Assembly (NCBI GenBank): GCA_944326585.1
Contig: CALVEN010000010.1
Coordinates: 1-44,964 of the forward strand
Length of the DNA: 44,964 nucleotides
DNA from: Candidatus Gastranaerophilales bacterium
GTDB taxonomy: Bacteria > Cyanobacteriota > Vampirovibrionia > Gastranaerophilales > Gastranaerophilaceae
Direction of reading: 5' to 3'
Positions 10,141-31,277 of this stretch are shown piece by piece. The notes beneath the pieces are model-generated. The model had not been told where the DNA came from. It worked only from the letters and a program-made list of their open reading frames with translations, and did not search any database. The stretch's first letter is position 1. Each line of letters starts with the position of its first letter. Both the position numbers and the translations under genes were made by a program.

Positions 10141-10174
10141 ACTTTACAAAAATCTCGTACGTTCGGTGTAGATT

Positions 10175-13244: not shown

Positions 13245-14351
13245 TTAATCAAATAACTTTAAGCATTTATCTTGAATATCTAAGGCAATATCTTTAGCAG
13301 ATTTTTCCTTAAACCCTATATTTTTTGCAACCGCTAAAATATCATCCAAATCAGGATTTTTGCCTTCGCCGTTAATCGTTGTTGCATGTTCTCCGTTAAA
13401 AGAAGAACTGTAAGTCAGGTCATACGCGGGAGATAGGTGCCATTCTTTTTTATTGCCATCGTAAAGATAAGAAAAATTCTTTGAATGGTCATCTTTATTA
13501 TGTGCAAACACATTGAAACACATCAGCCTGAATAAGTGCTCAATATCTTCATAATTTCTTGTAAGCTCAAGCGTAAGCTTCATCAAAATATTGTAATCCA
13601 GATTAGGAAGCCTGTGACTTGTTTCTAACAGTCCGCTTGCTGATACCATATGAATTTTTCTGCCGTTTTTACGGTCAAACCTTTTTACCCCAAAATACCC
13701 CGAACAAATTTTTGATGAAAAAAGCCTTGTTTCCGGCATATCTATTCCGCAATCTTTTGCGCATAATGAATATTGATACTCTTTTTCGCCAATATTTTTA
13801 GGGTCAAAAGATGACGGGAATTTAATTATCCAGTCTTCGTTATCTATAGAAGTTAAAATTTTAGGCCTTGCACCGCCGGATGAACCGCCAAGTTGAAAAA
13901 GTTCATCTAAGTTAGCCGAATCTTGTGATTCCAGTATTTTGGAACACTCTTGAGCAAGAATGTCATAATCGCAAATTTTGTTTTCCGTTTCAAATATGTG
14001 TTCAGGCTTATAAGTCAAGGCACCCATCCCACTTTTCTGAACAACAGCAAGACGATTAAGATTATCAATTTCAGCAGGATTTATTTTGTTTTTCAAAAAC
14101 AATCTGTCAACAAGCAACCGTCCCCAACCGTCAGGCAGACTGTCATTAAAAACGCCAAACAATCCGCCAAAAGGTTCGTATTTAGGGAAAAAAACTTTCT
14201 TGACAAGGGGTAGACTAAAGGGCGAAATGCTAAAACCATTATTTAGCCAGTCAGAATCATATTCAAAAGCAACAACCCTTTCGGGAGTTTTTGCAAGAGT
14301 TCCGACTAAAATATCATTATAAAATACTTTTAAATATTTATAGTTGTCCAT
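13245..14351 (-). CDS. hipA: HipA-family serine/threonine kinase toxin
   Basis: The toxin of a HipBA-type toxin-antitoxin pair. Characterised relatives phosphorylate glutamyl-tRNA synthetase and stall translation; the target here is unknown. The 368 residues show the HipA N-terminal subdomain (YNDILVGTLAKTPERVVAFEYD, SISPFSLPL, GLFGVFNDSLPDGWG) and the kinase core: WIIKFPSS for the ATP lysine, AHNKDDHSKNFSYL for the catalytic Asp/Asn, and LSPAYDLTYS for the DFG-like Asp. The kinase appears intact. The start overlaps hipB by 14 bases. Confidence 0.9.
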   Translation of the reverse strand: MDNYKYLKVFYNDILVGTLAKTPERVVAFEYDSDWLNNGFSISPFSLPLVKKVFFPKYEPFGGLFGVFNDSLPDGWGRLLVDRLFLKNKINPAEIDNLNRLAVVQKSGMGALTYKPEHIFETENKICDYDILAQECSKILESQDSANLDELFQLGGSSGGARPKILTSIDNEDWIIKFPSSFDPKNIGEKEYQYSLCAKDCGIDMPETRLFSSKICSGYFGVKRFDRKNGRKIHMVSASGLLETSHRLPNLDYNILMKLTLELTRNYEDIEHLFRLMCFNVFAHNKDDHSKNFSYLYDGNKKEWHLSPAYDLTYSSSFNGEHATTINGEGKNPDLDDILAVAKNIGFKEKSAKDIALDIQDKCLKLFD

Positions 14352-14622
14352 TTATGACCTCATCAATGGAAGTGTAGCTTTTTTGCGTAAATAAATTTTC
14401 CAAATCCCCTTCTAAATTGAGAGCAATCAGAATTTTTATAAAAGAATTCAAAGAAATTTCATACTTTGATTCAAACCTTTTGATAGAACCAAGGCTGACA
14501 CCCGATTTTGAAGCAAGCTGAATTTGTGAAATCTTAAGTTTTTTACGTTGCTGCTTAATTTTTTCAACTAATTCTTTTGCTATTTCATTAGGAGTTTTAG
14601 GGTTAAACAAAAAACTGTTCAT
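14338..14622 (-). CDS. hipB: HipB-like XRE antitoxin
   Basis: The 94-residue helix-turn-helix partner of HipA. The DNA-binding segment is about residues 28-55 (ISQIQLASKSGVSLGSIKRF). It should neutralise the kinase and repress its own operon. Two palindrome-like sites overlap and lie just upstream of the ATG (14622-14682), which supports autoregulation. The first gene of the pair, as expected for an antitoxin. Confidence 0.88.
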   Translation of the reverse strand: MNSFLFNPKTPNEIAKELVEKIKQQRKKLKISQIQLASKSGVSLGSIKRFESKYEISLNSFIKILIALNLEGDLENLFTQKSYTSIDEVINGQL

Positions 14623-14861: not shown

Positions 14862-14931
14862 TTTTGTGTCATTAGACTTTACTTTTTATATGGAAGAAGC
14901 AATCATTGTCTGTGATTAGACGAGTTTGAAA

Positions 14932-15471
14932 ATGAATGTAGTACAACCTATAAAAAAGCTAGAAGATATTCAAAAGATTAAAAAATATTTGGCAAAAAAG
15001 CCAAGAGATGCATTGCTTTTTAGTTTTGGAATAAATACGGGACTTAGAATATCAGATATATTATCGCTTGATGTAAGAGATGTAAAAGACAGAGATTATA
15101 TTGAAATAAGAGAGAAAAAGACGAATAAGTATAAGAAATTTCCGCTTAATAGGTTTTTGAAAGAGGAGATTGATGTATTTGTAGAAGGATTGCCCGTAGA
15201 ACAACCGCTTTTTTATACTCAAAAACATTGCAGGCTCGATAGAGCACAGGCATATAGAATTTTGAATATGGCAGCACAAGCAGTTGGGGTGAAGGAAAGA
15301 ATTGGAACACATACACTAAGGAAGACATTCGGGTATCATCATTATAAAAAATATAATGATATAGTACTCCTGCAAAAAATATTTAACCACTCCTCTCCAT
15401 TAGTAACACTTCGCTACATCGGCATCGAACAAGACACAATCGATGAAAGCTATATGAATTTTTATTTATGA
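14932..15471 (+). CDS. Small tyrosine recombinase / integrase
   Basis: A 179-residue phage-integrase-family protein consisting of little more than the catalytic domain. It shows LFSFGINTGLRISDILSL (first catalytic Arg), HTLRKTFGYHHY (His-x-x-Arg) and HSSPLVTLRYIG (His and the catalytic Tyr in RYIG). The arm-binding and most of the core-binding regions are absent, so it may need a partner or act on short sites. ATG 14932 is preferred; a TTG two codons earlier is possible. It overlies no hsdS inverted repeats, so it is more likely to move the element than to shuffle hsdS. Confidence 0.85.
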   Translation: MNVVQPIKKLEDIQKIKKYLAKKPRDALLFSFGINTGLRISDILSLDVRDVKDRDYIEIREKKTNKYKKFPLNRFLKEEIDVFVEGLPVEQPLFYTQKHCRLDRAQAYRILNMAAQAVGVKERIGTHTLRKTFGYHHYKKYNDIVLLQKIFNHSSPLVTLRYIGIEQDTIDESYMNFYL

Positions 15472-15493
15472 TAAACTTATAAAAAAGGGGTTT

Positions 15494-15610
15494 ATGGCGT
15501 TAATAGAAACAGAGCTTGAAGTTATTAATATTAAGGATTTAAAAAATATTAAAATTCCTGATTATCAAAGACCATATTTTTGGAGTGTAGAGTCTGTAAA
15601 TACTATGTAA
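15494..15610 (+). pseudogene. N-terminal remnant of a DUF262 (GmrSD/ParB-like) gene
   Basis: Thirty-eight codons beginning MALIETELEVINIKDLKNI and continuing IPDYQRPYFWSVESVNTM before a stop. The I-P-x-Y-Q-R-P-Y-x-W motif marks the start of the DUF262 nuclease domain found in GmrSD-like anti-phage proteins. AAAAGGGG lies before the ATG. Everything past the tryptophan helix is missing, and the stop is 22 bases from the end of the retron reverse transcriptase, so retron arrival or a linked deletion probably removed the rest. Confidence 0.75.
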
Positions 15611-15631
15611 AACTCAAGATATTTTTTACAT

Positions 15632-16606
15632 TTATGATTTAATCATTTTATTTAATGTTTTTAAAATTATATGCTCAGATATATTGTGCTTTTTACAAAT
15701 CGCAAGGGCATATTTTTTTATTTTTTCTCCGTAATCATCTTCAATAGAAATAACAAAAGCTATTTGACCTATTAATTTATCATTATTAGTTTTATTTTTA
15801 ACTATACAGAAATAAAGTTCTTTTCGGATGTTTCTTTTTAATTCTTTAGAAACTTTTATTTGATTATTATTAATAGTTATACCTGTAACTTTTTTATGCC
15901 AAGGTTCTATGATAAATTTTGTTTTTCTTGTATTAATTTGTAAATTAAAAGATTTTGAACGGTAAGGTGATATTAAATTTTCTATATTTTCTTTGATTGT
16001 CATTAGTTCTTGTTTATTATTTGAAGAAAAAAACAAATCATCCGCATATCTAGTATATTTAATATCTCTTTCTTTACAATAATAACTAATGCTATCATCT
16101 AGCTGAGAGCAAACTAAATTCGATAAATATGGAGAACAAATTCCACCTTGAGGAAGCTCTTTACAATAAGTGCATAATTCTGCTAAAATTTCAGATATTT
16201 TCTCAGAATAACCTATATCAATGAATAAATATCTTATTTTATCATATTTAATACTTTGAAAAAAATTACAAAAATCGAACTTCAAAAGATATGAGCTGTT
16301 TTGATGAATCTTTGCATTTTCCAACAAACCATTTTTGCCTTTTACAAAAGCCATTGCTGCGTCGGAGCAAGGAATTTTTTCTAAAATTTCTTTTAGTATA
16401 ATTTTTTGAGCCATTCTTAAATATTTTTTTGGAGCATTAATTATTCTTTTATCTTTAGAATGTTTTTTAGGAATTTTAAATGAGACATATTGTAAAGATT
16501 TTAACATGAAAAACTTATTCAACTGCTTATTAGTAAAAAGAAGCAAATGATTTAAGTCATTCATATTATCTAATTTTGGAAGTTTTAATAATTCAAGTTT
16601 ATCCAT
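15632..16606 (-). CDS. Retron reverse transcriptase
   Basis: Copies part of its own RNA into the msDNA of the retron. The 324 residues carry the catalytic RYADDLFF (about residue 187), PQGGICSPYLSNLV, and both retron hallmarks: NAKIH (the NAxxH motif, about 97-101) and VTG (about 239-241) followed by KVSKELKRNIRKELY in the thumb. There is no maturase or integrase domain, so this is neither a group II intron nor a DGR enzyme. It is encoded directly downstream of its msr-msd RNA and the effector, on one strand. The length is typical of retron enzymes. Confidence 0.93.
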   Translation of the reverse strand: MDKLELLKLPKLDNMNDLNHLLLFTNKQLNKFFMLKSLQYVSFKIPKKHSKDKRIINAPKKYLRMAQKIILKEILEKIPCSDAAMAFVKGKNGLLENAKIHQNSSYLLKFDFCNFFQSIKYDKIRYLFIDIGYSEKISEILAELCTYCKELPQGGICSPYLSNLVCSQLDDSISYYCKERDIKYTRYADDLFFSSNNKQELMTIKENIENLISPYRSKSFNLQINTRKTKFIIEPWHKKVTGITINNNQIKVSKELKRNIRKELYFCIVKNKTNNDKLIGQIAFVISIEDDYGEKIKKYALAICKKHNISEHIILKTLNKMIKS

Positions 16607-16618
16607 GATTATAAAAAA

Positions 16619-16792
16619 AATCGTTATTTTTCTTACTTAGTACGGTTTTAAAAATTGAGCAAAGACTTTTGCGAGATTTTTAAAACCGGACTGTGTCTTC
16701 CAACAGTCTTTAATTATCTTTACGAAGACGCCATCATCCTCAGACAAAATTTATTTTATACAATTTTGTTATATCTAAGAAAAATAACGATT
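16619..16792 (-). ncRNA. Retron msr-msd RNA
   Basis: The gap between effector and reverse transcriptase begins and ends with a 17-bp inverted repeat (16776-16792 and 16619-16635), the a1/a2 pair. Read leftward, a1 ends CTTA and is followed by G16775, a candidate branching guanosine. Then come msr hairpins: ACAAAATT/AATTTTGT (16769-16744) and GACTGT/ACAGTC (16708-16689), whose loop GAAGAC could also pair with GTCTTC at 16729-16724. The msd part is one long hairpin with a 13-bp stem (16643-16655 with 16676-16688) and an inner five-bp GCAAA/TTTGC stem. a1 overlaps the effector stop codon. Confidence 0.9.
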
Positions 16793-17660
16793 AATATCTA
16801 CAACCTATTATAGCTGAAATTATTTCATTGTAAATATCTTTATCATTTTTATTTAAAATTTCACAGATAATATTTTCTGCTTTTTTAGTTATACGAATTT
16901 TATCATCAACTTTTTTGATAAAATTTTCATTAAACAATAATTTTTTTGTTGATGTGAATATTGTATCAAAAAAATTTACATCTTTATTTAAATAATCAAC
17001 AAGTAAATATCTAGTGTAATTAGATAATTTAACCAGAGAAATTTCTTTGAAAAAGTATATTAATAATGCAATAAAATAAAATAATCCCATTAAATTATCA
17101 ATACTTCTTGTATTTCTATTGCTTATAGCAACTTCTTTAAATTTAGATTTTAATTTCTTGATTAACGAACTCTTATTTGAATTATTATAATAATATACTG
17201 AATTTATAAATTTTTTCTCCATATATTTTATTGGACCAAGACTTATAAATGATTTCGAATTTCTGAAATTTTCATGGTTCAAAATTATCAACTTATTTTT
17301 TAATTCCTCAGCATTAGTAAAAGCACCTAATTCACAAACGGACCCCCAACTTTCACAAGCAATGCATATAAAATCAACTTGAGACGCTAACCAATTTTCT
17401 AAAGTTAAATAATCAGCATTTTTATTCATTTTAAAATAATCTTCAAAAATAGCTTCTGGATAGAAAATTCTAACAAAAGGAACTCGTTCAAAATTTTCTT
17501 TTAAAAAATTTCTTAAATTTAGTTCCTCGGTACTACCACCACAAAGGAATATATCTACTTGATTTTTCTGAAAATCTGTATAAATAAATTCGTAAATTTT
17601 TACTAATAAATCAATTTCTTTAATAGAAGGTTTATCACCATAATTTATTGCAACTGTCAT
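16791..17660 (-). CDS. Retron effector, nucleoside deoxyribosyltransferase-like with C-terminal wHTH
   Basis: The toxic arm of the retron. The N-terminal domain (about residues 1-155) is NDT/TIR-like: DIFLCGGS near the start and ESWGSVCELGAF (about 103-114) with the Glu expected at the active site. The C-terminal part (about 170-289) is helical and ends in a winged-helix-like stretch (KVDDKIRITKKAENIICEIL). In type II-A retrons such as Eco1, the related effector is held by RT-msDNA and attacks a nucleotide cofactor, reportedly NAD, once phage disturbs the complex. ATG 17660 is chosen: TATTAT lies exactly six bases upstream; a GTG at 17675 overlaps that promoter. Confidence 0.85.
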   Translation of the reverse strand: MTVAINYGDKPSIKEIDLLVKIYEFIYTDFQKNQVDIFLCGGSTEELNLRNFLKENFERVPFVRIFYPEAIFEDYFKMNKNADYLTLENWLASQVDFICIACESWGSVCELGAFTNAEELKNKLIILNHENFRNSKSFISLGPIKYMEKKFINSVYYYNNSNKSSLIKKLKSKFKEVAISNRNTRSIDNLMGLFYFIALLIYFFKEISLVKLSNYTRYLLVDYLNKDVNFFDTIFTSTKKLLFNENFIKKVDDKIRITKKAENIICEILNKNDKDIYNEIISAIIGCRY

Positions 17661-17666
17661 TTTTTT

Positions 17667-17672
17667 ATAATA
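17667..17672 (-). promoter_or_regulatory. -10 element of the retron operon, leaderless spacing
   Basis: TATTAT, then AAAAAA, then ATG 17660. The whole retron (effector, RNA, RT) probably starts from here. It faces away from hsdM. Confidence 0.45.
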
Positions 17673-17770
17673 CACAAAAAATTCTTTTTTAGAAACCTAA
17701 TTAATCATAAAAATGGAGGATTTACCATATTTACATTTCTTAATATATTTAATATAAAATGAGGTATAGT

Positions 17771-19357
17771 ATGGGTTTTGATTTGAAAGATTTTCAGAAT
17801 AAGCTATGGAAAACAGCTGATGATTTACGTGCTAATTCCAGTTTGAAATATAATGAGTTTTCTACTCCTGTATTAGGATTGATATTCTTGCGTTTTGCAG
17901 ATTATCGTTTTCAAAAAGCAAAACCTGAGATAGAAAAATTAAAATCTACCGCCTCTCGTAGAGCGTTTGATGAGAAAAATGCTTATCAAGCAAGAGGAGT
18001 TTTATTTGTCCCTAAAAAAGCCTCTTATAAATATCTTTTAAATCTTCCTGAAGGTGAAAGTGCAGGTAGTGCATTAAACGAAGCTATGTCATTAATGGAA
18101 AACGAAAACTCTATTCTTAAAGGAGTTTTGCCTAAAAATTATTTAAGAATCCCTGATGACTTATTAGTTTCAACAATGAAAATCTTTAATGATGTTGAGT
18201 TTGACCGCAACAATGGTGATATATTTGGTAAAGTTTATGAATTCTTCTTAGGTAAATTTGCAAGCTCAGAAGGACAAAAAGGTGGAGAATTCTATACACC
18301 TACATGTTTGGTAAAACTACTTGTTGAAATTATGAAGCCATTTCATGGTAATGTTTATGACCCAGCATGTGGTTCGGGCGGTATGTTTGTTCAAACTGCA
18401 GAGTTTGCCAAAAGAGAAAATAAAGACTCTGATAAATCTGTTAACGATTTGATAACTGTTGAAGGTCAAGAAAAAACAGAAGAAACTGTTAGATGGTGTA
18501 AAATGAACCTTGCAGTCCACGGTCTTGAAGGTGATGTTAAACAAGCAAACAGTTTTTATGAAGATGTATTTAACTCAGTAGGTAAATATAATTTTGTTCT
18601 AGCAAATCCTCCATTTAACGTTGATGGGGTAGATAAAGAGAGATTGAAAGGTGATAAAAGATTCCCATTCGGATTACCAAAAGCCGATAACGCTAACTAT
18701 CTGTGGATTCAAATGTTTTACTCTGCACTAAAGACTCCAGAGAATGGGGAAAACTCTCGTGCAGGATTTGTAATGCCAAATTCTGCAAGTGATGCTAGAC
18801 AAACAGAACAGACTATTCGAGAAAAGATTATCCAAGACAATGCCGTTGATGTAATGGTATCAGTTGGCTCAAATATGTTTCATAACGTAACTTTACCTTG
18901 TACCCTTTGGTTTTTGGATAAAGGAAAGAAAAATACCGATAGAAAAGATAAAGTACTTTTCTTAGATGTAAGAGAAATTTATACTCAAATAGATAGAGCT
19001 CATAGAGAATTCACTGATGAACAAATAGAATTTATTACAAATATTGTCAAGTTATATAGAGGGGAAGCTCCTGAATACAAATGGGGTAGTAAAAAACTAA
19101 CCCTTGAACATTTTCCTGATGAAAAATATAAAGATATAAAAGGTCTTTGTAAAGTTGCAACTATTACAGACATAGAAAAACAAGGATGGAGCTTAAATGC
19201 AGGACGTTATGTAGGAGTAAAAGAAGTCGAAGAAGAAGACTATATCTTCGAAGAAAAACTCCAAGAGTTGAACTCTGAACTAGAAAAGTTAAATTCTGAA
19301 TCCAAAGACCTTGAAGAAAAGATTGCACATAATATAAAACAATTGTTAGGTGTGTAA
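17771..19357 (+). CDS. hsdM: Type I restriction-modification methyltransferase subunit
   Basis: Methylates adenine within the site chosen by HsdS; two copies join one HsdS. The 528 residues have the helical HsdM N domain ([23 protein letters not shown]), the AdoMet motif [10 protein letters not shown] (about residue 198), the catalytic NPPF (about 279) and a C-terminal coiled coil ([22 protein letters not shown]) that should contact HsdS. ATG 17771 is preferred because GAGGT lies seven bases upstream; ATG 17759 contains that site. First gene of the operon hsdM-hsdS-x-y-z-hsdR. Confidence 0.95.
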
Positions 19358-19358
19358 G

Positions 19359-20633
19359 ATGGTAAATAAATGCTATAAAAAACTATCCGATATTTGCTCA
19401 TTAATAGCAGATTGTGTCAATAAAACCGCTCCAAAAGTTGATTTTGTTACACCGTATAAAATGCTACGAACGACTAACATAAAAAATGGATACATTGATT
19501 TTGAAAATGTTAGTTATGTTACAAAAGAAATATTTGAAAAATGGACTAGGAGGTGTCTTCCTCAATATGGAGATATTATTTTAACAAGAGAAGCTCCAGT
19601 TGGAGAAATAGGACGTTTTAATATAGACTCAGATAATTATTTTTTAGGTCAACGATTATTTTTATATAGAGCGAATCCTGAGTTGTTGGATTGGAATTAT
19701 TTGGCATATGCATTACTGAGTCCTGAAATGAAAGGCATATTGTCTGGGATTTCTAATGGTTCTACAGTTGCACATATAAAAGTTCCAGATGCTGAACATT
19801 TAAAAATCCCTTATTTCCCAATAAAATTTCAAAGGAAAATTGGTAAAATTTTATCAAACTATGATGATTTGATAGAGAATAACAACAGGCGTATAAAGAT
19901 ATTAGAGGAGATGGCACAGAAGATATATAAAGAGTGGTTTGTAGATTTCAAATTCCCCGGACACGAAACCACAATATTCAAAGATTCCCCTCTAGGTAAA
20001 ATACCAAATGATTGGGAGGTAAAAAAAGTTGTTGAATTATCTACATTATCAAAAGGAAAATCTTATAAAAGTTCTGAATTGGTTGATAAAAAAGATGGTT
20101 TACCTTTTTTAAATTTAAAATGTGTTGAAAGAGATGGCGGATTTAAAAGAGAAGGTTTAAAGTGGTTCTGTGGAAAGTATAATGATAACCAAGTTGTTTT
20201 ACCTGAAGATATAATTATGGCAGTTACAGATATGACTCAAGAAAGGAAATTAGTTGCTAGACCTGCAAGAATTCCTCATAACTGGTATAAAAAATATATT
20301 ATGTCTATGGATTTAGTTAAATTAGTTGCTAATAATGATATAAATAAAACGTACCTTTATTCGTTGTTAAAATATTCTAACTTTTCAGATGAAGTAAAGA
20401 ATCATGCAAATGGTGTCAATGTATTGCATCTTAATCCTCAAAATATTGAACAATTTGAACTTGTTGTTGCAAGTGAACCACTAAGAAATAATTTTGGGGA
20501 ATTTGCTAAAAGAATATTTAATCAAATAGATGTTTTATATTTAAAAAACGAAAACTTAAAACAAACACGTGATGTATTGCTTCCTCGCCTAATCTCCGGC
20601 GAAATTAACGTTGAAAATATGGAGGTGTTGTAA
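19359..20633 (+). CDS. hsdS: Type I restriction-modification specificity subunit
   Basis: Sets the DNA sequence recognised by the restriction and modification complexes. The 424 residues hold two target-recognition domains (about 1-155 and 215-375), each followed by a conserved helical region: NNRRIKILEEMAQKIYKEWF and NENLKQTRDVLLPRLISGEI. The second recognition domain starts at LGKIPNDWEVKKV, the usual boundary. Both halves look complete. It begins one base after the hsdM stop. I found no second or inverted hsdS fragment, so there is no sign of specificity switching here. Confidence 0.93.
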   Translation: MVNKCYKKLSDICSLIADCVNKTAPKVDFVTPYKMLRTTNIKNGYIDFENVSYVTKEIFEKWTRRCLPQYGDIILTREAPVGEIGRFNIDSDNYFLGQRLFLYRANPELLDWNYLAYALLSPEMKGILSGISNGSTVAHIKVPDAEHLKIPYFPIKFQRKIGKILSNYDDLIENNNRRIKILEEMAQKIYKEWFVDFKFPGHETTIFKDSPLGKIPNDWEVKKVVELSTLSKGKSYKSSELVDKKDGLPFLNLKCVERDGGFKREGLKWFCGKYNDNQVVLPEDIIMAVTDMTQERKLVARPARIPHNWYKKYIMSMDLVKLVANNDINKTYLYSLLKYSNFSDEVKNHANGVNVLHLNPQNIEQFELVVASEPLRNNFGEFAKRIFNQIDVLYLKNENLKQTRDVLLPRLISGEINVENMEVL

Positions 20634-20641
20634 AAGAGCTG

Positions 20642-21112
20642 TTGTTTTCAATAATTAATTTTTTCTTAAGTTTTCAGCATTTGGTCGTTTTTGCAGGTAC
20701 AATTGCAGTGTTATTATTTATTGTAAAAAGAAATATTATAATGAAATTTTTTGAAAAATATATACATACCATTTGGTTTATATTTGTGTTTTCAACAACA
20801 ATGTATTATTGCTGTAAAAATTGGGCTGTGATTGTTGCAGCAAAGCCTTATGAATGTAATTTTATATTGTTTTGCTTTTTGCTTATTCTTGCCCTTTTGC
20901 CGTATATTTCAAATTTTAAAATTTTTAATTTCGAAGGAAAAATTAATAACCCACTTTGCCCTACAAAGAAATTGGCAGAAGAAAATCTAACTAAAATTGA
21001 AGATAAGACTCCTATTCAAAACAATGTGAATTTGAATATTCAAGTTAACCAAGAAGAATACAAAAAACAAATAGCAAAAATATTGCAAGAAAAGGGGGTT
21101 AAAAATGAATAA
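20642..21112 (+). CDS. Small membrane protein inside the type I operon, unknown
   Basis: A 156-residue protein with three membrane helices (about residues 10-28, 42-60, 75-93) and a charged cytosolic tail that ends in a helix (NIQVNQEEYKKQIAKILQEK). The frame opens with TTG 20642, eight bases after hsdS; the first ATG is at 20741 and would remove the first helix, so I keep TTG with some doubt. Its last codons overlap the start of the next gene. I do not recognise it. Its place between hsdS and hsdR suggests a role linked to restriction, or simply cargo. Confidence 0.6.
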   Translation: MFSIINFFLSFQHLVVFAGTIAVLLFIVKRNIIMKFFEKYIHTIWFIFVFSTTMYYCCKNWAVIVAAKPYECNFILFCFLLILALLPYISNFKIFNFEGKINNPLCPTKKLAEENLTKIEDKTPIQNNVNLNIQVNQEEYKKQIAKILQEKGVKNE

Positions 21113-21401
21113 CCCAATATATCAAATATTTAATACTCAAAAAACAAATATTCAAAATGTAAAATTAATAACAGATGCAGCCAATAAAGGTATTGAACTA
21201 ATGAATCGTGAAATTGATTATGCTTTATTGAATGCTTATCAAAATTATATTATTTCTATTTTAAATATTGTTTCTAATAATACAAAAACTAATTATATTG
21301 ATTTATATAATAGATTTTGTATTTCAAATTGTTATTTGTCATGCTATGATCAATTAAAAAGAAATATAGAGTTTTTAATTGATTTGGCAAAACGGTTATA
21401 A
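21105..21401 (+). CDS. Small helical protein of unknown function
   Basis: Ninety-eight residues, almost entirely predicted helix, Asn- and Tyr-rich, without a signal peptide or membrane segment. AGGGGG lies just before the ATG, which overlaps the preceding stop codon by eight bases, so the two genes are translationally coupled. A 128-base gap follows before the next gene. No family recognised. Confidence 0.6.
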   Translation: MNNPIYQIFNTQKTNIQNVKLITDAANKGIELMNREIDYALLNAYQNYIISILNIVSNNTKTNYIDLYNRFCISNCYLSCYDQLKRNIEFLIDLAKRL

Positions 21402-21529
21402 TTGAATAATTTTATCTAGATAAATATTGTTTTATACTAATTATTCTTTTTAAGTTATAAATACAAATTATGCATTTTCTGAAATATCTGTTTAAATATT
21501 TACTAATATATTTATAGTATTATTGAATT

Positions 21530-22759
21530 ATGAATAATCATGGGTATTTATTTTGTAATTACGACTTAAACCAAATTTTAGAAAAATCTAAACAAAGTAT
21601 TCAAGAAAAAATACAATCTGAATCTAATGAATATATCGCAAATGTTAATCAAGATGATTACTTATCTTGTATTCAAGCTTCATTTAATATCGAATGTCCA
21701 ATATTAAATGAAGAGAAAATTAGTATTGAAAAGAAAGAAGCTAGAATAGAAAAATATAATCGTTATTTTTCTGAAACAGGATATGTTGACGGAATTATTA
21801 TAAAAGTTACAATCCCTTTTACTGGTGATCCGGATTTATTTTTAGCTAGAGCAAATACTTTTTCATCTAGGCATCCTATAGGTGACGTTTCTAATCATCA
21901 AGTAACTCTCTCTTTTCCACTTGCGATATATGAGCTTGAAGAAACTGATATAAACCAAAGAATTCAAGACGAAATTAATATTATAAAAAAATATTTAAGT
22001 TTCGTAGAAAAAGATTTAAATGCTTTTAATAGTTCTATTAAAACAATCGCGAAAGCTGCAATAGATTATAAAATTGACAAATATAACAAAATAAACAGTT
22101 TTGTAAAAGGAATTAAATATGAATTAAAAACAAATGAACACATTCCAGAAACATATAAAATCCCAAATGTTGTTAGAAAAATAGAAATAATAAGACCAGA
22201 ATTAAAAAAGTTAATTCCAGAACCGGTTTTAGAAGATGAAGAATATAATCATATATTAAAAATCTGTTCAGATATGTCATTAGTAATGGAACGAAGTCCA
22301 AAATCTTTTGCTCAAATGGATGAAGAAGCTTTAAGAACTCATTTCCTTGTTCAGTTAAATGGTCATTATCAGGGACAAGCTACTGGTGAAACATTTAATT
22401 CTAATGGAAAAACAGATATTTTGATAAGAAATGATAACCAAAATGTTTTTATTGCTGAGTGCAAATTTTGGAAAGGTAAAAAGGGCTATTTATCTACAAT
22501 TGACCAATTATTAGGATATGTAACTTATCGAGATACAAAAACTGCGATATTCATGTTTGTGAAAAATAAAAATTTTACAGAAGTTTTCCAGCAAATGAAA
22601 GAAACTGTAACTGAACATCCAAATTTTATAAAATTTATTGATTCTTATACACCTCCAAAAGATTCTTCTGCATTTAGATGTGAATTTAAAAACCAAAATG
22701 ATGAAGAAAAACATTTTTATATTACGTTTATGGCTTTTTGCATTCCTGATGGAGATTAG
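21530..22759 (+). CDS. PD-(D/E)XK-like nuclease within the type I operon
   Basis: A 409-residue protein. About residues 1-190 are an uncharacterised helical and beta region (a central stretch reads VKVTIPFTGDPDLFLARANT with I for the first V). The C-terminal third resembles a restriction-endonuclease fold: NSNGKTDILIRNDNQNVFI supplies the Asp, and AECKFWKGKK (about 308-317) the E-x-K, followed by DQLLGYVTYRDTKTAIFMF. This layout is seen in stand-alone nuclease domains of anti-phage proteins. It lies between hsdS and hsdR with its own upstream gap, so it may have a separate promoter. Function unproven. Confidence 0.65.
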   Translation: MNNHGYLFCNYDLNQILEKSKQSIQEKIQSESNEYIANVNQDDYLSCIQASFNIECPILNEEKISIEKKEARIEKYNRYFSETGYVDGIIIKVTIPFTGDPDLFLARANTFSSRHPIGDVSNHQVTLSFPLAIYELEETDINQRIQDEINIIKKYLSFVEKDLNAFNSSIKTIAKAAIDYKIDKYNKINSFVKGIKYELKTNEHIPETYKIPNVVRKIEIIRPELKKLIPEPVLEDEEYNHILKICSDMSLVMERSPKSFAQMDEEALRTHFLVQLNGHYQGQATGETFNSNGKTDILIRNDNQNVFIAECKFWKGKKGYLSTIDQLLGYVTYRDTKTAIFMFVKNKNFTEVFQQMKETVTEHPNFIKFIDSYTPPKDSSAFRCEFKNQNDEEKHFYITFMAFCIPDGD

Positions 22760-22810
22760 TAATATTGTTTATTAACAAAATTTATGTTAGTCTGAATTTG
22801 GAGAATATGA

Positions 22811-25800
22811 ATGCATAAATTATCAGAAGAAGCATTTGAAAAAGACTTAATGCAGGAATGTAAAGATTCACTAGGGTTTGAACTTTTTGACGCAACCTAT
22901 GAAATCGTTGGTTCTGATGATTCTACTTTTGGGAGACAAACAACAGAAGAAGTTATTTTATCTAAAAACCTAAGAAATGCATTGGAAAAATTAAATCCTG
23001 ATTTACCTCAAGAGGCTATTGATAATGCATTTTATGAATTAACTCAAAATTTATCAAATAAAACAGAAATTGGTGCTAACCAGTTTATTTATAAAATTAT
23101 TAAAGATGGGGTTAAAGTTCAATTTAAAGATAACAACGGAATTGATTCCAGTGATATTGTGAAAGTTATTGACTTTAATAGACCTAAAGAAAATGATTTT
23201 TTACTCGTTAGGCAGTTTAAGATCTCAGGAGAAAGATACAATTGTAGAGCTGATTTGATTTTATTTGTAAACGGTTTACCTCTTGTATTCATTGAATTAA
23301 AAGCAACTCATAAACACATAGAAAATGCTTTTTATAATAACATCACTCATTATAAAAAAGAAATTCCGCAAGTATTCTGGTATAACGCTTTTATTGTGGT
23401 ATCTAATGGAACAGATGCTAAATTCGGAACTATTACTTCTAAATGGGAACATTTTTCAGATTGGAAGAAAATAAGTAATGAAAATGAAAAGGGTATAATT
23501 TCTGCTGATATTTTATTGAAAGGAATGTGTTCTCCAGATAATCTACTCGATATTATTGAAAATTATACACTATATCAAGAAACAAAGGGCGGAACAATAA
23601 AAATTTGCGCAAAAAATCACCAATTTTTGGGTGTTAATACTGCTATTGAGAATTTTGAAAGCAATAAAGATGGGAAATTAGGAGTTTTTTGGCATACCCA
23701 AGGTAGTGGTAAAAGTTTTTCAATGATATTTTTTGTTCAAAAAATACTGAGAAAAGTCAAAGGAAATTGGACATTTCTAATCGTTACAGATAGAACAGAC
23801 TTAGATGATCAAATATATAAAAACTTTGTTTCAACAGGAGCTGTGACAGAACAAAATGTTCAAGCTACAACAAGAGAACATTTAAAACAACTTTTAAGAG
23901 AAGATCATAGAACAGTGTTTACTATGATTCAAAAATTTGGTACTGAAGAAAAAGGACAAAGTTTTGAAAAAATTTCTGATAGAGATGATATTATTGTAAT
24001 TACTGATGAAGCCCACCGAACTCAGTATGGAACGCTCGCTATGAACATGCGAGAAGCCTTGCCAAATGCAAAATTTATAGCATTTACAGGCACTCCATTA
24101 ATGAAGGATGATGAAAAAACTAAACTTGTATTTGGTGATTATGTTAGTAAATACACTTTCAAACAATCTATTGAAGATCATGCAACTGTTCCATTGTATT
24201 ATGAAGCTCGAATTCCCCGAATGCAGCTTACAAATGATGAATTAGAAGAGGATTTACAAAATATCATTGATTCTGCAGATTTTACTCCCGAACAAGAGGA
24301 ACAGTTTGAAAAAGAATATGTAAATATGTATCAGGTAATTACAAGGGAAGATAGGCTTGATGCAATTGCAAAAGATGTTGTTGAACATTTTATGAACCGC
24401 GGTTTTATGGGAAAAGCTATGTATGTTGCAATCGATAAAGCAACTGCGGTCAAAATGTATAATAAAGTCAAAAATGAATGGGGAAAATATATACAAAAAC
24501 TAAAAAATAAACTTAAAACAGCAAATGATGATCTTAAAGAAATTATCAAAAAAGATATCGATTATATGGAAGAAACCGATATGGCTGTCGTTGTGTCCCC
24601 TTCACAAAATGAAATTGAACAATTAAAACAAAAAGGCGTTGATATTACTCCTCACAGAACAAGAATGAAAAATGAGGATTTAGCAACAAACTTTAAAAAT
24701 GAAAAACATCCGCTACGCCTAGTTTTTGTTTGTGCAATGTGGGTTACGGGTTTTGATTGTCCTACTATTTCGACATTGTATCTTGATAAAATTTTAAAAG
24801 AACATACTTTAATGCAAACAATTGCCAGAGCTAATAGAGTATCAGAAGGAAAGTTTAATGGTCTAATTGTTGATTACATTGGGATATTCAAAGCATTGCA
24901 AAAAGCTTTGGCGATTTATGGTGAGCCAACAGAACCTGCAGATAATGATGAAGATCCGGCAGAAACTAAGACAAAATTAATTGAGCTTCTTGAAAATGAA
25001 TCGAAAAAGATGAAGAATTTACTTGATTCTAAGGGAATTAATGTGGATAAAATATTTGATACAAGAGCATTAGAATGTATTAAAAATACAGAAGAAGCTG
25101 TAAGTAAATTATTGGAGAATGAAAAAACAAAAGAAGATTTCTTAAAATATACACAAAATTTAAAAATGTTATTCAAGGCTATATTACCAGATTCAGAAGC
25201 AAGAAGATATGCCAAATTAGTTTTTGTGTCTTCAGTGATTTATTCAAAAATAAAAGAAGCTTTAGTAGAATATGTAGACAAAACAGAAGTAAAAAGACTT
25301 GCACTGCAAGTAGAAGAGTTGTTAAATGAATCAATAAAACTAGCATCTTATAAAATTAATTCTGGAGAAAAATTAGATTTAAGTAAAATTAATTTTGAAG
25401 AACTTCAAAGACGAATTCTAAAAGAGAAAAAACTTGCATTATTAGAAAAATTAAAAGCATCTATAAGTTCTAAATTATCTTCGATGTTGAAACTAAATGA
25501 TATGAGAAAGCATTTTCAAGAGAAATTTGAACAAATTATTGAAGATTATAATAATGGTAAGTTAACTATGGAACAAATGTATGTACAGCTCGTTGCTTTA
25601 ACTAACCAGCTAACAGAAGAAGAAAAACGCCATTTGGATGAAAATTTATCAGAAGAAGAACTCGCAATTTTAGATATTTTAACAAAACCTGAGCCAAAGC
25701 TTTCCAAAAAAGAATTTGAGACTGTTAAATTAGCAGCACAAAAATTGGTAAAAGTAATAAAAAAAGAAAAATTAGTTTTGGATTGGCGCAAAAAACAATC

Positions 25801-25960
25801 AACAAGAGCTAAAGTAAAAGAAGCAATCGAAACAATTTGTGATGAGATATTACCTGAAATATATGATAAAGATTTATTCCAGAAAAAATGTAATTATTTA
25901 TACAACCACTTTTATGATCACTATAACAATTACAAAGACAATATTTATGATGTTGCATAA
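22811..25960 (+). CDS. hsdR: Type I restriction endonuclease subunit R
   Basis: The motor and nuclease of the type I complex; it translocates and cuts unmodified DNA. The 1049 residues show the N-terminal nuclease site (RADLILFVNGLPLVFIELKA, E-x-K near 161), Walker A QGSGKSF (about 299-303), DEAH near 398, AFTGTPL, VTGFDCPT and QTIARANR for the SF2 helicase, and a helical C-terminal region for HsdM/S contact. All catalytic motifs look intact. GGAG lies seven bases before ATG 22811. The operon can therefore encode an active system. Confidence 0.95.
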   Translation: MHKLSEEAFEKDLMQECKDSLGFELFDATYEIVGSDDSTFGRQTTEEVILSKNLRNALEKLNPDLPQEAIDNAFYELTQNLSNKTEIGANQFIYKIIKDGVKVQFKDNNGIDSSDIVKVIDFNRPKENDFLLVRQFKISGERYNCRADLILFVNGLPLVFIELKATHKHIENAFYNNITHYKKEIPQVFWYNAFIVVSNGTDAKFGTITSKWEHFSDWKKISNENEKGIISADILLKGMCSPDNLLDIIENYTLYQETKGGTIKICAKNHQFLGVNTAIENFESNKDGKLGVFWHTQGSGKSFSMIFFVQKILRKVKGNWTFLIVTDRTDLDDQIYKNFVSTGAVTEQNVQATTREHLKQLLREDHRTVFTMIQKFGTEEKGQSFEKISDRDDIIVITDEAHRTQYGTLAMNMREALPNAKFIAFTGTPLMKDDEKTKLVFGDYVSKYTFKQSIEDHATVPLYYEARIPRMQLTNDELEEDLQNIIDSADFTPEQEEQFEKEYVNMYQVITREDRLDAIAKDVVEHFMNRGFMGKAMYVAIDKATAVKMYNKVKNEWGKYIQKLKNKLKTANDDLKEIIKKDIDYMEETDMAVVVSPSQNEIEQLKQKGVDITPHRTRMKNEDLATNFKNEKHPLRLVFVCAMWVTGFDCPTISTLYLDKILKEHTLMQTIARANRVSEGKFNGLIVDYIGIFKALQKALAIYGEPTEPADNDEDPAETKTKLIELLENESKKMKNLLDSKGINVDKIFDTRALECIKNTEEAVSKLLENEKTKEDFLKYTQNLKMLFKAILPDSEARRYAKLVFVSSVIYSKIKEALVEYVDKTEVKRLALQVEELLNESIKLASYKINSGEKLDLSKINFEELQRRILKEKKLALLEKLKASISSKLSSMLKLNDMRKHFQEKFEQIIEDYNNGKLTMEQMYVQLVALTNQLTEEEKRHLDENLSEEELAILDILTKPEPKLSKKEFETVKLAAQKLVKVIKKEKLVLDWRKKQSTRAKVKEAIETICDEILPEIYDKDLFQKKCNYLYNHFYDHYNNYKDNIYDVA

Positions 25961-25982
25961 AGTTTGACTTTAGCAAACTTTT
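25959..25982 (+). terminator. Weak terminator after hsdR
   Basis: AAAGTTTG and CAAACTTT form an eight-bp stem around ACTTTAG, with only a short T run. It overlaps the hsdR stop codon. Confidence 0.45.
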
Positions 25983-25991
25983 AAGTGATGA

Positions 25992-26018
25992 ATACGACAC
26001 CTGAAAAGGAGGTCGTAT
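25992..26018 (+). promoter_or_regulatory. Hairpin masking the ribosome site of the 26017 gene
   Basis: ATACGAC (25992-25998) pairs with GTCGTAT (26012-26018). The loop holds AAGGAG and the stem includes the first two bases of the ATG. Such a fold would hold translation down until opened. Confidence 0.55.
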
Positions 26019-26241
26019 GAGTAAAAATAAGAAATACAAGATTAAACAAAAAGATTTTAGGAAGTTAGAAAAATTAGCTGAGCGGATTTATAACACAGTT
26101 GTTGTAATTGATTATTTTTGCAGGACTCAACAAGAGATTGAAGAGTTGTATAATCTTACTCCAGTCGTTGAAAATTTAAGACGAGATTCTGATACAGTAA
26201 ACGCTTATTTTATAAATTATCCTGACAACAAAAATTTTTAG
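26017..26241 (+). CDS. Small basic helical protein, unknown
   Basis: Seventy-four residues, Lys-rich at the start (MSKNKKYKIKQKDFRKLEKL) and helical, ending in YFINYPDNKNF. A strong AAGGAGGT lies right before the ATG, within the hairpin noted above. No family recognised; size and context suit an accessory gene of a mobile element, perhaps a regulator. It follows hsdR by 56 bases. Confidence 0.6.
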   Translation: MSKNKKYKIKQKDFRKLEKLAERIYNTVVVIDYFCRTQQEIEELYNLTPVVENLRRDSDTVNAYFINYPDNKNF

Positions 26242-26257
26242 ATGGTATTTAAAACTT

Positions 26258-26286
26258 GTTTTAATACCGTTCAAACAGTGTTCAAA
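26258..26286. repeat. Second phased half-site array
   Basis: GTTTTAA at 26258, GTTCAAAC at 26269 and GTTCAAA at 26280 repeat with exact 11-base spacing. The following TTGTGTC and the general layout match the array in front of the recombinase. It lies 95 bases before the 26381 gene. Confidence 0.6.
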
Positions 26287-26358
26287 AAATAAATTGTGTC
26301 TGAATGATACGTTTTGAGAGAGTTTGCTTGATATTTTACTCATTAAGAGTGATGAATG

Positions 26359-26384
26359 TCATTGCTGATAAGAGGTAGCAATGA
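26359..26384 (+). promoter_or_regulatory. Hairpin enclosing the ribosome site and start of the 26381 gene
   Basis: TCATTGCT (26359-26366) pairs exactly with AGCAATGA (26377-26384), which contains the ATG. The ten-base loop is GATAAGAGGT, carrying the ribosome-binding sequence. Confidence 0.6.
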
Positions 26385-26596
26385 TTGAATTAGGCAAAAA
26401 ATACAAACTAAAAAAGATTAGAGGTTTTGAAAACTCTGATAATGAGTATTACAAAGTAATTGGATTCTATAACTTCGACACTGTAATTTGTGAAAACGCC
26501 TACGGAGAAAGATTTGTATTTATGAAAGAGTTTTTAATAGACCCACAAAAGCCTGATAAAATCTATTCAGATTTAATACTTGAAAGGAAAGAATAA
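26381..26596 (+). CDS. Small protein of unknown function
   Basis: Seventy-one residues with a beta-rich look: YKLKKIRGF, YYKVIGFYNFDTVICEN and ERFVFMKEF suggest a small barrel. No membrane segment. It starts inside the hairpin noted above and its last base is the first base of the next gene's ATG. First of three tightly packed small genes (26381-27013). Confidence 0.6.
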   Translation: MIELGKKYKLKKIRGFENSDNEYYKVIGFYNFDTVICENAYGERFVFMKEFLIDPQKPDKIYSDLILERKE

Positions 26597-26796
26597 TGAC
26601 AGAAAAAGACTATGCACTTTATGGAACAAAGGTTTTGAATTTAAAGACACAAGAAATTGGCTTGCTAATTTGTATTTGGAAAAATAAGTTTGCCGATGCA
26701 GAGGTAGATTACGCAACTTGTGTTGATAAGCAAGGCAAAAGATATAATATAGAGCTTGATAACATACGAGGGTTTGAAGATGATTTTGAAAAATAA
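26596..26796 (+). CDS. Small protein of unknown function
   Basis: Sixty-six residues: MTEKDYALYGTKVLNLKTQE, then GLLICIWKNKF and a VDKQGKRYNIELDNI segment. The alternating strands and short turns suggest a small SH3- or KOW-like barrel, as in many phage and plasmid accessory proteins, but no family is identified. AAGGAAAG precedes the ATG, which overlaps the previous stop by one base; the 3' end overlaps the next gene by 17 bases. Confidence 0.55.
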   Translation: MTEKDYALYGTKVLNLKTQEIGLLICIWKNKFADAEVDYATCVDKQGKRYNIELDNIRGFEDDFEK

Positions 26797-27220: not shown

Positions 27221-30200
27221 TTAATTGGTACTTAATGTATTATTTAAGATGTGCCAAATTTTATAATATACAGAACCGTCTATAGATAATTCTTCTTTTC
27301 TTGCTATATTATTCCAATCTGAGACTGTTAAATTTTTAATCCAGTCAAAAGTTTCTATTGGGGTTTTATTAAATATATTTTCTTCACTTTCTTTATAGAA
27401 TTTACCTAATGCTACCGATATGGTTCTAGGAACTCCATTTTTTCTCATTAATACAGCTTCATTTGTGTTAACACCGTAATATATCATAGCAGATGTATTG
27501 TTTATTTCTAACTTTTCTTCTTCAGTTAAATTATCAAAATCAATTCCTGATAATTTTTGAATTGAAGCCATTCCCCAAGTAGCAGAATATGAGATATCTT
27601 TTGTAAGTTTTTGATAACACTCTGTTATAATTCCTGTATCGTTTTGGTTAGAATTTTCTCTTTTAAAGTATTTTAGTGCTATTTCTCTTATCGTATTGCC
27701 ATTTACCCAATCAGAAACAAGAGAAGCAAGTGTATTACTATCTTTTTTGTAAATACCTATTTGCTTTAATGGTTCATTAATCTCAGGTATTTTTAACATA
27801 ACTCCCATTATATTTTTTAACTTACTATTTTCATTAAATAAATTACTTGAATGTAAAGACTCTTTAGTTAAACCCAAATCAGATATATTTGAAATATTTG
27901 CTCTAATTGTTTCAAAAGAAAACCCTGTATTGTCAGATTGTTTTGATAAACCTCTGTTGTTGTTTAATTTTGTTACATAATCTTTAACACGTTTTGTTAA
28001 AAACTCTCTTTGAGAATCTGTAATTTGATTAAAACCAAGTGTTTTACGAAGTATTATTTCTATACGATTGTTAAAAATACTTACATCTTCAATTTGGTTA
28101 TATATATGAGTCAAATATTGCAAAAATTCAGACCATTTTACAAATAATGCTTGCTTTTGAAAATAAAAATTATTATCAAATTTGAAATTTTCTAAATCTT
28201 CTATATTTTCTAATAATTTTTTTAAAACGGAATACAAATCTTTGGTGTTTTCACGTATATAATTTTTTAATTTTTTTGTATCTTCTTCATTGTCATTATT
28301 CAAAGCTATTCCGACAACACCTAATGAGCTATGATTCATTCTACCGGCTCGTCCAACTAAATTCCAAAAATCTTTTGTAGGCATTTTTCCATATGGATAT
28401 GAATATGATGCCATGAGTATTTTTGAAACAGGGAAATTTATACCTTGGGCTATAGTTGTTGTAGCAACTAAAACTTTTAATTTATTGTTTTCCATTAACC
28501 ATTCCATAAGATATCTAATTTCATCAGATAAACCTCCATGATGAATTCCAATACCTTTTTCTAAATATTTGGCTAAAACAAAATCTTCACCCAATTCAGC
28601 TCGAATAAATTTTTGCACAGTTATTATATCATTATCATTTTGTATGTTTACATCTGTTGGAATAAAATCATATAATAATTCTGCAACTTCCCAACAATCT
28701 TTTGGTTTCATACAAATACAAAGAATATTACCATCCCCGACTAACTGAGAAGTAACAATTGTTGTTAATAATTTTTTATTATTTTTAATTCTACTACAGG
28801 TATAATTATATATATTACAATCATTTTTAATAGCAATGTCTTTTTCTATTTGTATTCTCGCATTACTTGTTATCAAAGTCTTAAAGCGACTTTGCCAATT
28901 TCTTTTTTCTCCTTCTACATAGTAGGCTCCAATTATTCTATCATTAGGACACCAATCAATATCTAGTTCAACTTCTTGTGGATTATCAGAATCTAGCCAT
29001 TTTGAAAGTTCAGCCGCGTTTGGAATAAAAGGAGTTAATAACAAGAAATTAGCTTTTGGACAATCATTACTAATGTTGGCCAATAATATTTCATAAGCTA
29101 AGCCTCTAGAATCAGCTTCAATATTGTGTGCTTCATCCACAACAGCCAAAACAAGTTTTTTTGATAATTCACTAAAAGCCTTTTTTCTTAATAAAAAATT
29201 TAACTTTTCAGGGGTGATGACTAGAACATCAAACATTTTTTTTGTCTTTGTTTTCTTTAGCAAATTATCTTCATATAAATCAATATCCATCGAGCCACTT
29301 AATTTTTGCACTTTTATATTCAATGGTTCAAAATCTCTTTTTAATTTCGCGGCAATTTGATTTACTAATGCTCTTGTAGGGGCAATATAGGCTACCCATC
29401 CTTCATCGTCTTTGAATTGATTTAGAGCTTGCAATATTCTAAATTCGGCTATAATTGTTTTTCCACTTGATGTAGGAAGATTTACAACAATTGCTTTATG
29501 CGCTGGATTTAACAATCCTTTATTGATTATAGCCTCTCTTTGAGGATACAATAACTCATAAGCGGCATTATGCTCGAGTTTTGTTATTGATTTTACAAAA
29601 TTAGATATTTGCGAACAAACACCTCTGCTAATCCACCAAATTGAATTCTTAATCATTTGTTCTGCCATATCTTTTAGTAATGATAACAGTAAAGATAGTT
29701 CAAAGTTGGCAGTTATTTCAGAAGACTTGATAGCATTATCAAAATGATAATCAATTTGTTCTTTAATATCAGTTGTATTACCATTTATTAGGTAACAAGC
29801 TAATAGTTCTATTATTTTCGCAAAATGATAGAGCGATAAAAGTTCCATAGGTTTATTTAATGAGGCATTATTATTTAGATAAACGGTTTCAAAGTCTTTT
29901 TGTAGTTCTCTTAGATTGTTAATTTTCTCAATTGCTTTTTCTAAATCCTTCCAATTATCTTTTTTTACAAGATACAAAAAAGCATTGTATAATGTTTTAA
30001 ATATTTTTACATCCCAAGTATCATTATCATTATCATTATCATTATCTTCAACAAGAATTGCATCAAAATAATTTAAGATAAATCTTCGTCCAGATTCCCA
30101 AGATTGTCCCAAATAAGAATATGAGATTATTTTAAAAATATATTTAATCTTTTGCATATCATTACTTGGAATACCAAGGGCTTGATATAACAAAAATAGG

Positions 30201-30463
30201 TCTTTGCAATAATGGTAGAAATCAGCCATTAAATGTTCATCAGATTTTAAATCATTTTTTAATTGAATCAAAAACAATTCAAAGACTTCAATAAATGCTT
30301 CAAGATATTCAGATTCTTCAAGAAAAACTTCATCATCATTTAATTCAAATTTATTTTCCAAGGTTTTATTGATAAGTCTCTTATTGGCAATATTTATAGC
30401 TTTTTGATATGAATCTTTTCCTAAGGTATCTAAAAAATCATTTTGAGGAGTATTATTTATCAC
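27221..30463 (-). CDS. Ski2-like DEAD/DEAH defence helicase (HamB-like)
   Basis: A 1080-residue superfamily 2 helicase. A roughly 300-residue helical N region precedes Walker A LPTSSGKT (about 326-333), YIAPTRALV, VITPEKL, VVDEAH (about 441-446), and in the second RecA domain ATTTIAQGINFP and NLVGRAGRMN (about 702-708). The rest is helical. Size, motif set and the nuclease gene immediately upstream fit HamB of Hachiman (or the related AbpAB pair). An in-frame TCATTA repeat (30021-30046) encodes a run of Asn-Asp pairs near residue 140. It begins 11 bases inside the nuclease gene's end. Confidence 0.82.
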   Translation of the reverse strand: MINNTPQNDFLDTLGKDSYQKAINIANKRLINKTLENKFELNDDEVFLEESEYLEAFIEVFELFLIQLKNDLKSDEHLMADFYHYCKDLFLLYQALGIPSNDMQKIKYIFKIISYSYLGQSWESGRRFILNYFDAILVEDNDNDNDNDTWDVKIFKTLYNAFLYLVKKDNWKDLEKAIEKINNLRELQKDFETVYLNNNASLNKPMELLSLYHFAKIIELLACYLINGNTTDIKEQIDYHFDNAIKSSEITANFELSLLLSLLKDMAEQMIKNSIWWISRGVCSQISNFVKSITKLEHNAAYELLYPQREAIINKGLLNPAHKAIVVNLPTSSGKTIIAEFRILQALNQFKDDEGWVAYIAPTRALVNQIAAKLKRDFEPLNIKVQKLSGSMDIDLYEDNLLKKTKTKKMFDVLVITPEKLNFLLRKKAFSELSKKLVLAVVDEAHNIEADSRGLAYEILLANISNDCPKANFLLLTPFIPNAAELSKWLDSDNPQEVELDIDWCPNDRIIGAYYVEGEKRNWQSRFKTLITSNARIQIEKDIAIKNDCNIYNYTCSRIKNNKKLLTTIVTSQLVGDGNILCICMKPKDCWEVAELLYDFIPTDVNIQNDNDIITVQKFIRAELGEDFVLAKYLEKGIGIHHGGLSDEIRYLMEWLMENNKLKVLVATTTIAQGINFPVSKILMASYSYPYGKMPTKDFWNLVGRAGRMNHSSLGVVGIALNNDNEEDTKKLKNYIRENTKDLYSVLKKLLENIEDLENFKFDNNFYFQKQALFVKWSEFLQYLTHIYNQIEDVSIFNNRIEIILRKTLGFNQITDSQREFLTKRVKDYVTKLNNNRGLSKQSDNTGFSFETIRANISNISDLGLTKESLHSSNLFNENSKLKNIMGVMLKIPEINEPLKQIGIYKKDSNTLASLVSDWVNGNTIREIALKYFKRENSNQNDTGIITECYQKLTKDISYSATWGMASIQKLSGIDFDNLTEEEKLEINNTSAMIYYGVNTNEAVLMRKNGVPRTISVALGKFYKESEENIFNKTPIETFDWIKNLTVSDWNNIARKEELSIDGSVYYKIWHILNNTLSTN

Positions 30464-31277
30464 AATCCGCCTCCTTTACAATATTTATCCAAGCATCATT
30501 TTCCATTTTTAATCCAGAATATATTGCAATAAATTCTGCTTCTGTATCCATGTGAATATAGTTGTTTATTTCATGAGCTTTTGCTTTAATATCAAGTTCA
30601 TTTGGAACGGTATCTCTTACTAGAACCCCAAATAACTTGAATTTCTTTTTCTTGCTTTTATAATATGTAACTAAAGCTTTTTCGTAATCTTGACGAAAGA
30701 CATTGTCTTTAGGTAAAGGCACTATCTTGTTTGCCAGCCATTGCAACAGGCATTGTTTTGTTTTGCTATTACTTAATAAGTCTTTTAATTGTGACTGCAT
30801 ACCTGTACGACCATAAATAACACTTGGTGGGGATGACGTATCTTGTGATGTTTTAACTTCACCGAAAACAAAATAAGTTTCATTATTTATTTGACAAAAA
30901 CCTACAATGTCTGTACCTGTTTGGTTGGCATTAGGGTTTTTAGCATCACGAAAATGATTATAGTGAAATTTTACATCATAATTATCTTCAAGGATGCACT
31001 CTGTTAAAAATTCTCCAATCAACCAATTCTTAACTTCTATAGTAGACGAAAAATCTTTTTGAATTTTAGATCGAAGTTCTTCATTAGAAAATCCTGTTGA
31101 TTCTAACGCATTTATAATTTCAACCTGAATTTTTTCACGATGAATTGTATCATGAAGTTTATCTTTCACTCTCGCACGCAAATAATTTCCAAATTCCTGA
31201 GGCGAAACAAACTGAAGCCCAGTATATGGGACTTTCTGATTATTCTCGTTTGCATATATTTTCTTAATAGCATCCAT
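30453..31277 (-). CDS. PD-(D/E)XK nuclease partner (HamA/DUF1837-like)
   Basis: A 274-residue protein from ATG 31277; an earlier TTG at 31295 has no better ribosome site. The nuclease core is visible: EFLTECILEDN helix, NQTGTDIVGF with the Asp (about 120), then TYFVFGEVKTS with E-x-K (about 140-145). The remainder is helical and basic. In Hachiman, HamA is the nuclease kept inactive by HamB until DNA is damaged by phage. Assignment to DUF1837 rests on these motifs and gene order only; other nuclease-helicase pairs remain possible. Confidence 0.7.
   Translation of the reverse strand: MDAIKKIYANENNQKVPYTGLQFVSPQEFGNYLRARVKDKLHDTIHREKIQVEIINALESTGFSNEELRSKIQKDFSSTIEVKNWLIGEFLTECILEDNYDVKFHYNHFRDAKNPNANQTGTDIVGFCQINNETYFVFGEVKTSQDTSSPPSVIYGRTGMQSQLKDLLSNSKTKQCLLQWLANKIVPLPKDNVFRQDYEKALVTYYKSKKKKFKLFGVLVRDTVPNELDIKAKAHEINNYIHMDTEAEFIAIYSGLKMENDAWINIVKEADCDK

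Follow-up and report, generated by a model that had tools for sequence, protein, structure and literature searches.

Three additional genes stand between hsdS and hsdR of a type I restriction-modification operon from a Candidatus Gastranaerophilales bacterium, and the question they raise is whether they form one defence system with the enzyme around them or are separate modules carried at this position. The window, i.e. the whole stretch of DNA analysed, comprises 44,964 nucleotides. The hsdS–hsdR gap of its operon is probably a swappable cargo slot holding two independent accessory modules, namely a pair of small genes, designated here TM156 and S98, and a gene coding for a protein of the PADLOC candidate defence family PDC-S54.

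The type I operon and neighboring defence loci

The host operon lies on the forward strand and consists of hsdM (17759..19357), coding for a type I DNA methyltransferase of 532 aa (Pfam N6_Mtase, 2.1e-76), hsdS (19350..20633), coding for a specificity subunit of 427 aa (Methylase_S, 3.3e-20), and hsdR (22811..25960), coding for a restriction subunit of 1049 aa (HSDR_N, 7.1e-44, and SWI2_SNF2, 4.8e-77). With HsdM_N and T1R_D3-like domains also recognised by Pfam, these genes represent a standard type I system, and the enzyme itself is ordinary. An earlier note on this DNA had described three extra genes splitting the operon; the ORFs are as described there, and Pfam and blastn confirm that they interrupt an operon which is otherwise complete, with hsdS on one side and hsdR on the other. 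The close packing noted at the same time is also present: on the same strand, TM156 (20642..21112, 156 aa) begins 8 nt after hsdS and S98 (21105..21401, 98 aa) overlaps TM156 by 8 nt, followed after a 128-nt gap by the PDC-S54 gene (21530..22759, 409 aa). The dN/dS values of TM156 and S98 are mostly low, and the conservation of all three genes indicates that they are real. A scan for promoters and terminators returned counts close to the shuffled expectation.

Defence-related loci are found on both sides of the operon. A Type II-A retron (15632-17675, reverse strand) adjoins hsdM and includes a reverse transcriptase (RT_II-A, 1.2e-98) and an NDT-type effector (5.5e-75), and the interval between their genes contains a strongly structured RNA at 16600-16800 (z -7.1, with 0 of 200 shuffles as stable), which has no Rfam match and looks like the msr-msd of the retron. 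Downstream of the hsd operon, PADLOC detects the two-gene candidate defence system PDC-M23A/B together with a HamB-like (Hachiman-like) helicase at 27221-31295 on the reverse strand.

Exchange of the genes between hsdS and hsdR

A search of the bacterial family with the HsdM of the window resulted in a set of operons with HsdM 90-98%, HsdR (where present) 82-98% and hsdS 33-69% identical to those of the window, the HsdM of locus L019 being 89.6% identical. Every complete operon of the set possesses genes between hsdS and hsdR, and their content differs. The combination of TM156, S98 and PDC-S54 occurs in the window's genome only, among those searched. L019 has an AbiJ-like gene and PDC-S54 at this position, L018 has PDC-S54 and a HATPase/DUF4325 pair, L136 has the HATPase/DUF4325 pair before the contig ends, L129 has DUF6978 and DUF1828 genes (PDC-M24-like), L134 has an AbiJ-like gene and a gene for a 272-aa protein, and L130, L131, L132 and L135 have Fic genes with different partners, the Fic proteins falling into two classes (SoFic-like). 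Further cargo among the relatives includes GIY-YIG, as judged by sequence reading. The slot proteins of 217 and 272 aa have no clear Pfam or PADLOC match (there is one weak Pfam match below the cut-off); located at 4728-5381 in L132, 5956-6774 in L134 (reverse strand of the locus) and 4923-5738 in L135, they are regarded as products of further candidate defence genes.

The limits of the slot were obtained from a blastn comparison with L129, which belongs to another genus, and from the junction sequences. The two loci share 93% nucleotide identity in hsdM, conserved hsdS blocks, central as well as close to the 3′ end (the latter at 20557-20624, about 68 bp), and 96% identity in hsdR and downstream of it (22810-26484), while the cargo at 20625-22809 is devoid of any DNA homology between them. 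The slot was therefore placed at 20625..22809 on the forward strand, with the 3′ end of hsdS as its left edge and the start of hsdR as its right edge. The set amounts to a natural experiment, in which operons from different genera, with HsdM 90-98% identical and HsdR 98% identical in the closest case, carry entirely different genes at one fixed position.

Such an exchange may proceed by recombination through the conserved hsd blocks, with hsdM and the central and 3′-end blocks of hsdS on the left and hsdR on the right, so that a single event would swap the hsdS target domains and the slot genes and keep hsdM and hsdR. The pattern suggests a joint exchange of restriction specificity and accessory defence. 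A scan of 14900-26000 for recombination-site repeats gave short AT-rich matches only, which were taken as chance, and no dedicated site. The window also contains, at 14926-15471 on the forward strand, a gene for a small tyrosine recombinase of 181 aa consisting of the catalytic part only. Homologues of it (65-72%) are located upstream of hsdM in L019 and L140; the recombinase may therefore travel with these hsd loci or act on them.

L140 and the window have common outer island flanks in blastn (HipBA, the small tyrosine recombinase and the region 25980-26793) and a different hsd family between them. L140 displays a second embedding position as well, with genes for a 90-aa protein and a 455-aa membrane protein, the latter having no family match, between hsdM and hsdS (9661-11297, reverse strand).

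The PDC-S54 nuclease

The 409-aa protein belongs to PDC-S54 (PADLOC PDLC05036) over its full length, its residues 1-406 matching positions 1-407 of the 410-position profile with an E-value of 1.8e-132; neither Pfam nor NCBIfam gave a match that passed the cut-off. A literature search for PDC-S54 by name yielded no paper; the family is listed by PADLOC as a candidate defence family only, and its anti-phage role is likewise a candidate one.

The AlphaFold2 model (mean pLDDT 87.5) opens with an N-terminal α/β region, continues through a long helix at 141-193 and a linker of low confidence at 206-228, and ends in a C-terminal domain covering residues 236-409. Residues E266, D296, E310, K312 and Q326 are invariant in all 45 aligned members from many bacterial and archaeal phyla, which supports the D...E-x-K nuclease pattern read in this protein earlier and answers the concern that its residues might not be conserved; the D...(D/E)xK residues typical of the PD-(D/E)XK superfamily are thus present. 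In the structural comparison of the C-terminal part, OkrAI, BamHI and BglII came out on top (Z 7.2-7.8; 130-144 residues aligned at an rmsd of about 4 Å), followed by McrBC and EcoRI, and the Foldseek match was not significant (E 0.15). Because the Z-scores are below 8, the fold match is consistent with a nuclease but not conclusive alone. A sequence search of solved structures gave two weak matches confined to the helical stretch, taken as chance. Residues 236-409 can be clearly read as a PD-(D/E)XK nuclease domain from the invariant motif and the predicted fold together. The domain has the D/ExK catalytic pattern of BamHI, BglII, OkrAI and McrC and a predicted fold consistent with theirs but only about 10% sequence identity to them, and PDC-S54 possesses the extra N-terminal region. 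Conservation is 0.73-0.74 in the nuclease core versus 0.43-0.46 in the N-terminal region, as would be expected for a variable sensor part.

Relatives of PDC-S54 are found in many bacterial and archaeal phyla, on plasmids and in a few viral contigs. PDC-S54 lies directly beside or between hsd genes in about 11 of the 80 GTDB loci, namely L018, L019 and, in distant phyla, L030, L031, L039, L043, L064, L065, L069, L072 and L087; this count is a lower bound, since the HMMs are narrow and many contigs are short. In L053, L071 and L094 hsd-like genes are located further away, and the remaining GTDB loci have no hsd genes within the DNA examined. Methylase_S is the commonest Pfam family among the immediate neighbors, yet it accounts for only 5 of 135. 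Plasmid copies mostly stand alone, and the copy from Thauera follows hsdS- and hsdR-like genes at a distance of about 2 kb. Embedding in hsd loci is therefore recurrent but neither tight nor obligatory, and most copies of this protein are found away from such genes.

The TM156 and S98 pair

TM156 had been described as a three-helix membrane protein. It is indeed a membrane protein, with two clear hydrophobic stretches; the middle stretch is weaker in the window and clear in homologues, which are present in nine other genomes of the family. Its TTG start codon is probable rather than certain, because in the alignment the N-terminal hydrophobic segment is present in L140, whereas the homologues of L137-L139 are shorter and lack it. 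S98, noted before as helical, is predicted by AlphaFold2 to be all-helical with four helices (pLDDT 92.8), and a fold search with it returned generic helical bundles only (E 0.5 or worse). Its homologues, found in ten other genomes of the family, show dN/dS of 0.05-0.10 among the closer ones. Both proteins have only weak Pfam matches below the cut-off and none in NCBIfam, PADLOC or PHROGs, and the assignment of a family name to either was dropped for these reasons. S98 has no match in the viral contigs of IMG/VR and was found only in the window's own bacterial family, in 12 of the 339 genomes searched across the phylum.

In nearly all loci examined S98 adjoins a TM156-like gene. The pair is located beside HipBA in L137, L138 and L143, near an RT-trypsin gene in L139, next to McrB-like and methyltransferase-like genes (named from sequence reading) in L145, beside or in Mu-like elements in L141 and L144, and within a Mu-like element, adjoining a Hachiman-type HamA and a helicase, in L146 (4776-8929, reverse strand; HamA 3.2e-49). 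In L140 it occupies the hsdS–hsdR gap of an unrelated type I operon, with HsdM 36% and HsdR 33% identical to those of the window. The window itself has a HipBA pair at 13245-14622 (reverse strand), whose homologues (85%) are the ones found beside or near TM156 and S98 in L137, L138 and L143. PDC-S54 is absent from all the loci of the pair examined outside the window (L137-L141, L143-L146). As judged from gene content, TM156 and S98 constitute a conserved adjacent pair and a candidate two-gene module without earlier description.

Separate modules or a single system

Because PDC-S54 occurs in none of the other loci of the pair, the three genes are best described as two modules, TM156 with S98 on the one hand and PDC-S54 on the other, both of which are known elsewhere without hsd genes. 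The earlier note had suggested a composite defence in which restriction is followed by a second response, i.e. the three genes and HsdMRS would act as a single dedicated machine with a membrane or nuclease response after restriction. All the genes are indeed tightly packed and co-directional in one operon, and TgvAB with its host type I operon protected more strongly than TgvAB alone (PMC11411939); nevertheless, the pair and PDC-S54 are each found without the other and mostly without hsd genes, and the slot content changes beside near-identical hsdM and hsdR, which makes such a machine very unlikely. A three-gene composite system was rejected on the same grounds, the modules being separate across loci. 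Still less credible is a one-off, functionless insertion: the three-gene set is unique to the window's genome among those searched, but the dN/dS values (0.22-0.48 for PDC-S54 and the low ones of the closer S98 homologues), the invariant active-site residues of PDC-S54 and the recurrence of the same modules elsewhere argue against it.

An origin of TM156 and S98 from Mu-like phage elements, with a function in superinfection exclusion or lysis and a secondary arrival in the slot, appears unlikely, though less so than the foregoing. Four of the homologous pairs are found in such elements or next to them (L141, L144, L145, L146); against this, IMG/VR and PHROGs gave no match, and several copies, located beside HipBA or hsd genes or near the RT-trypsin gene, have no Mu genes in the surrounding DNA examined. 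Defence cargo borne by a phage would give the same picture, so this explanation overlaps with that of a cargo slot. As for PDC-S54, there is an appreciable, if minor, chance that it is a modification-dependent (type IV-like) enzyme cutting modified phage DNA and complementing the type I enzyme as TgvAB does. Its two-part layout of a variable N-terminal region and a conserved PD-(D/E)XK domain, its frequent stand-alone occurrence and the TgvAB precedent are in line with this, but no modified-base reader domain was recognised in PDC-S54 and no structure clearly matched its N-terminal region, the comparison list being filled by matches to the nuclease domain.

The cargo slot with two accessory modules remains the preferred explanation, and an accessory role in defence is the best reading of the extra genes, because Fic, AbiJ-like and other genes of defence type fill the slot in relatives. 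This role is inferred from association, the cargo elsewhere being largely known or candidate defence genes. The PDC-S54 nuclease would probably cut invading DNA missed by the type I enzyme, its variable N-terminal region being the likely sensor. TM156 might, at a guess, be a membrane effector held or triggered by S98, and the pair could conceivably provide an abortive-infection-like second line. A broader proposal is put forward only tentatively: TM156 and S98 may be a new lineage-restricted, membrane-acting anti-phage module and, at the same time, the gap may be a general cassette slot which reassorts defence modules together with HsdS specificity. If so, a single recombination event would change restriction specificity and backup defence at once.

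Comparison with known systems

Defence genes nested inside multi-gene defence clusters were reportedly treated as 'guilt-by-embedding' by Payne et al. in a bioRxiv preprint of 2024 (10.1101/2024.01.29.577857), to which both PMC12255303 and PMC11411939 refer for embedded defences. The statement of the earlier note that no named system has this set of genes is true of the set, although the 409-aa protein already belongs to a listed PADLOC family and the embedding position has been published. TgvAB (VC1766-67) is embedded in the VPI-2 type I restriction-modification operon of Vibrio cholerae (PMC11411939) and is similar to the present case in having two extra genes among type I hsd genes and accessory restriction as a second defence line; it differs in being a GmrSD-type enzyme, and none of the three slot proteins has a Pfam match to DUF262 or DUF1524. 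DarTG2 was found embedded between hsdS and hsdR, at a site called a potential recombination hotspot (PMC12255303); the insertion position is identical, but the cargo there is a toxin-antitoxin system, and no PADLOC or Pfam match to a DarT toxin or DarG antitoxin exists among the three slot proteins. RloF is cited as another precedent for hsdS–hsdR embedding in the TgvAB paper (PMC11411939). The hsdS–hsdR gap as a position for a second defence is thus not new. What is new here is TM156 with S98 as a candidate module and the unusually clear evidence of cargo exchange. Because near-identical operons of different genera carry different genes in it, the slot is a practical hunting ground for defence modules, having yielded TM156 with S98 and the 217-aa and 272-aa proteins in the window's family alone.
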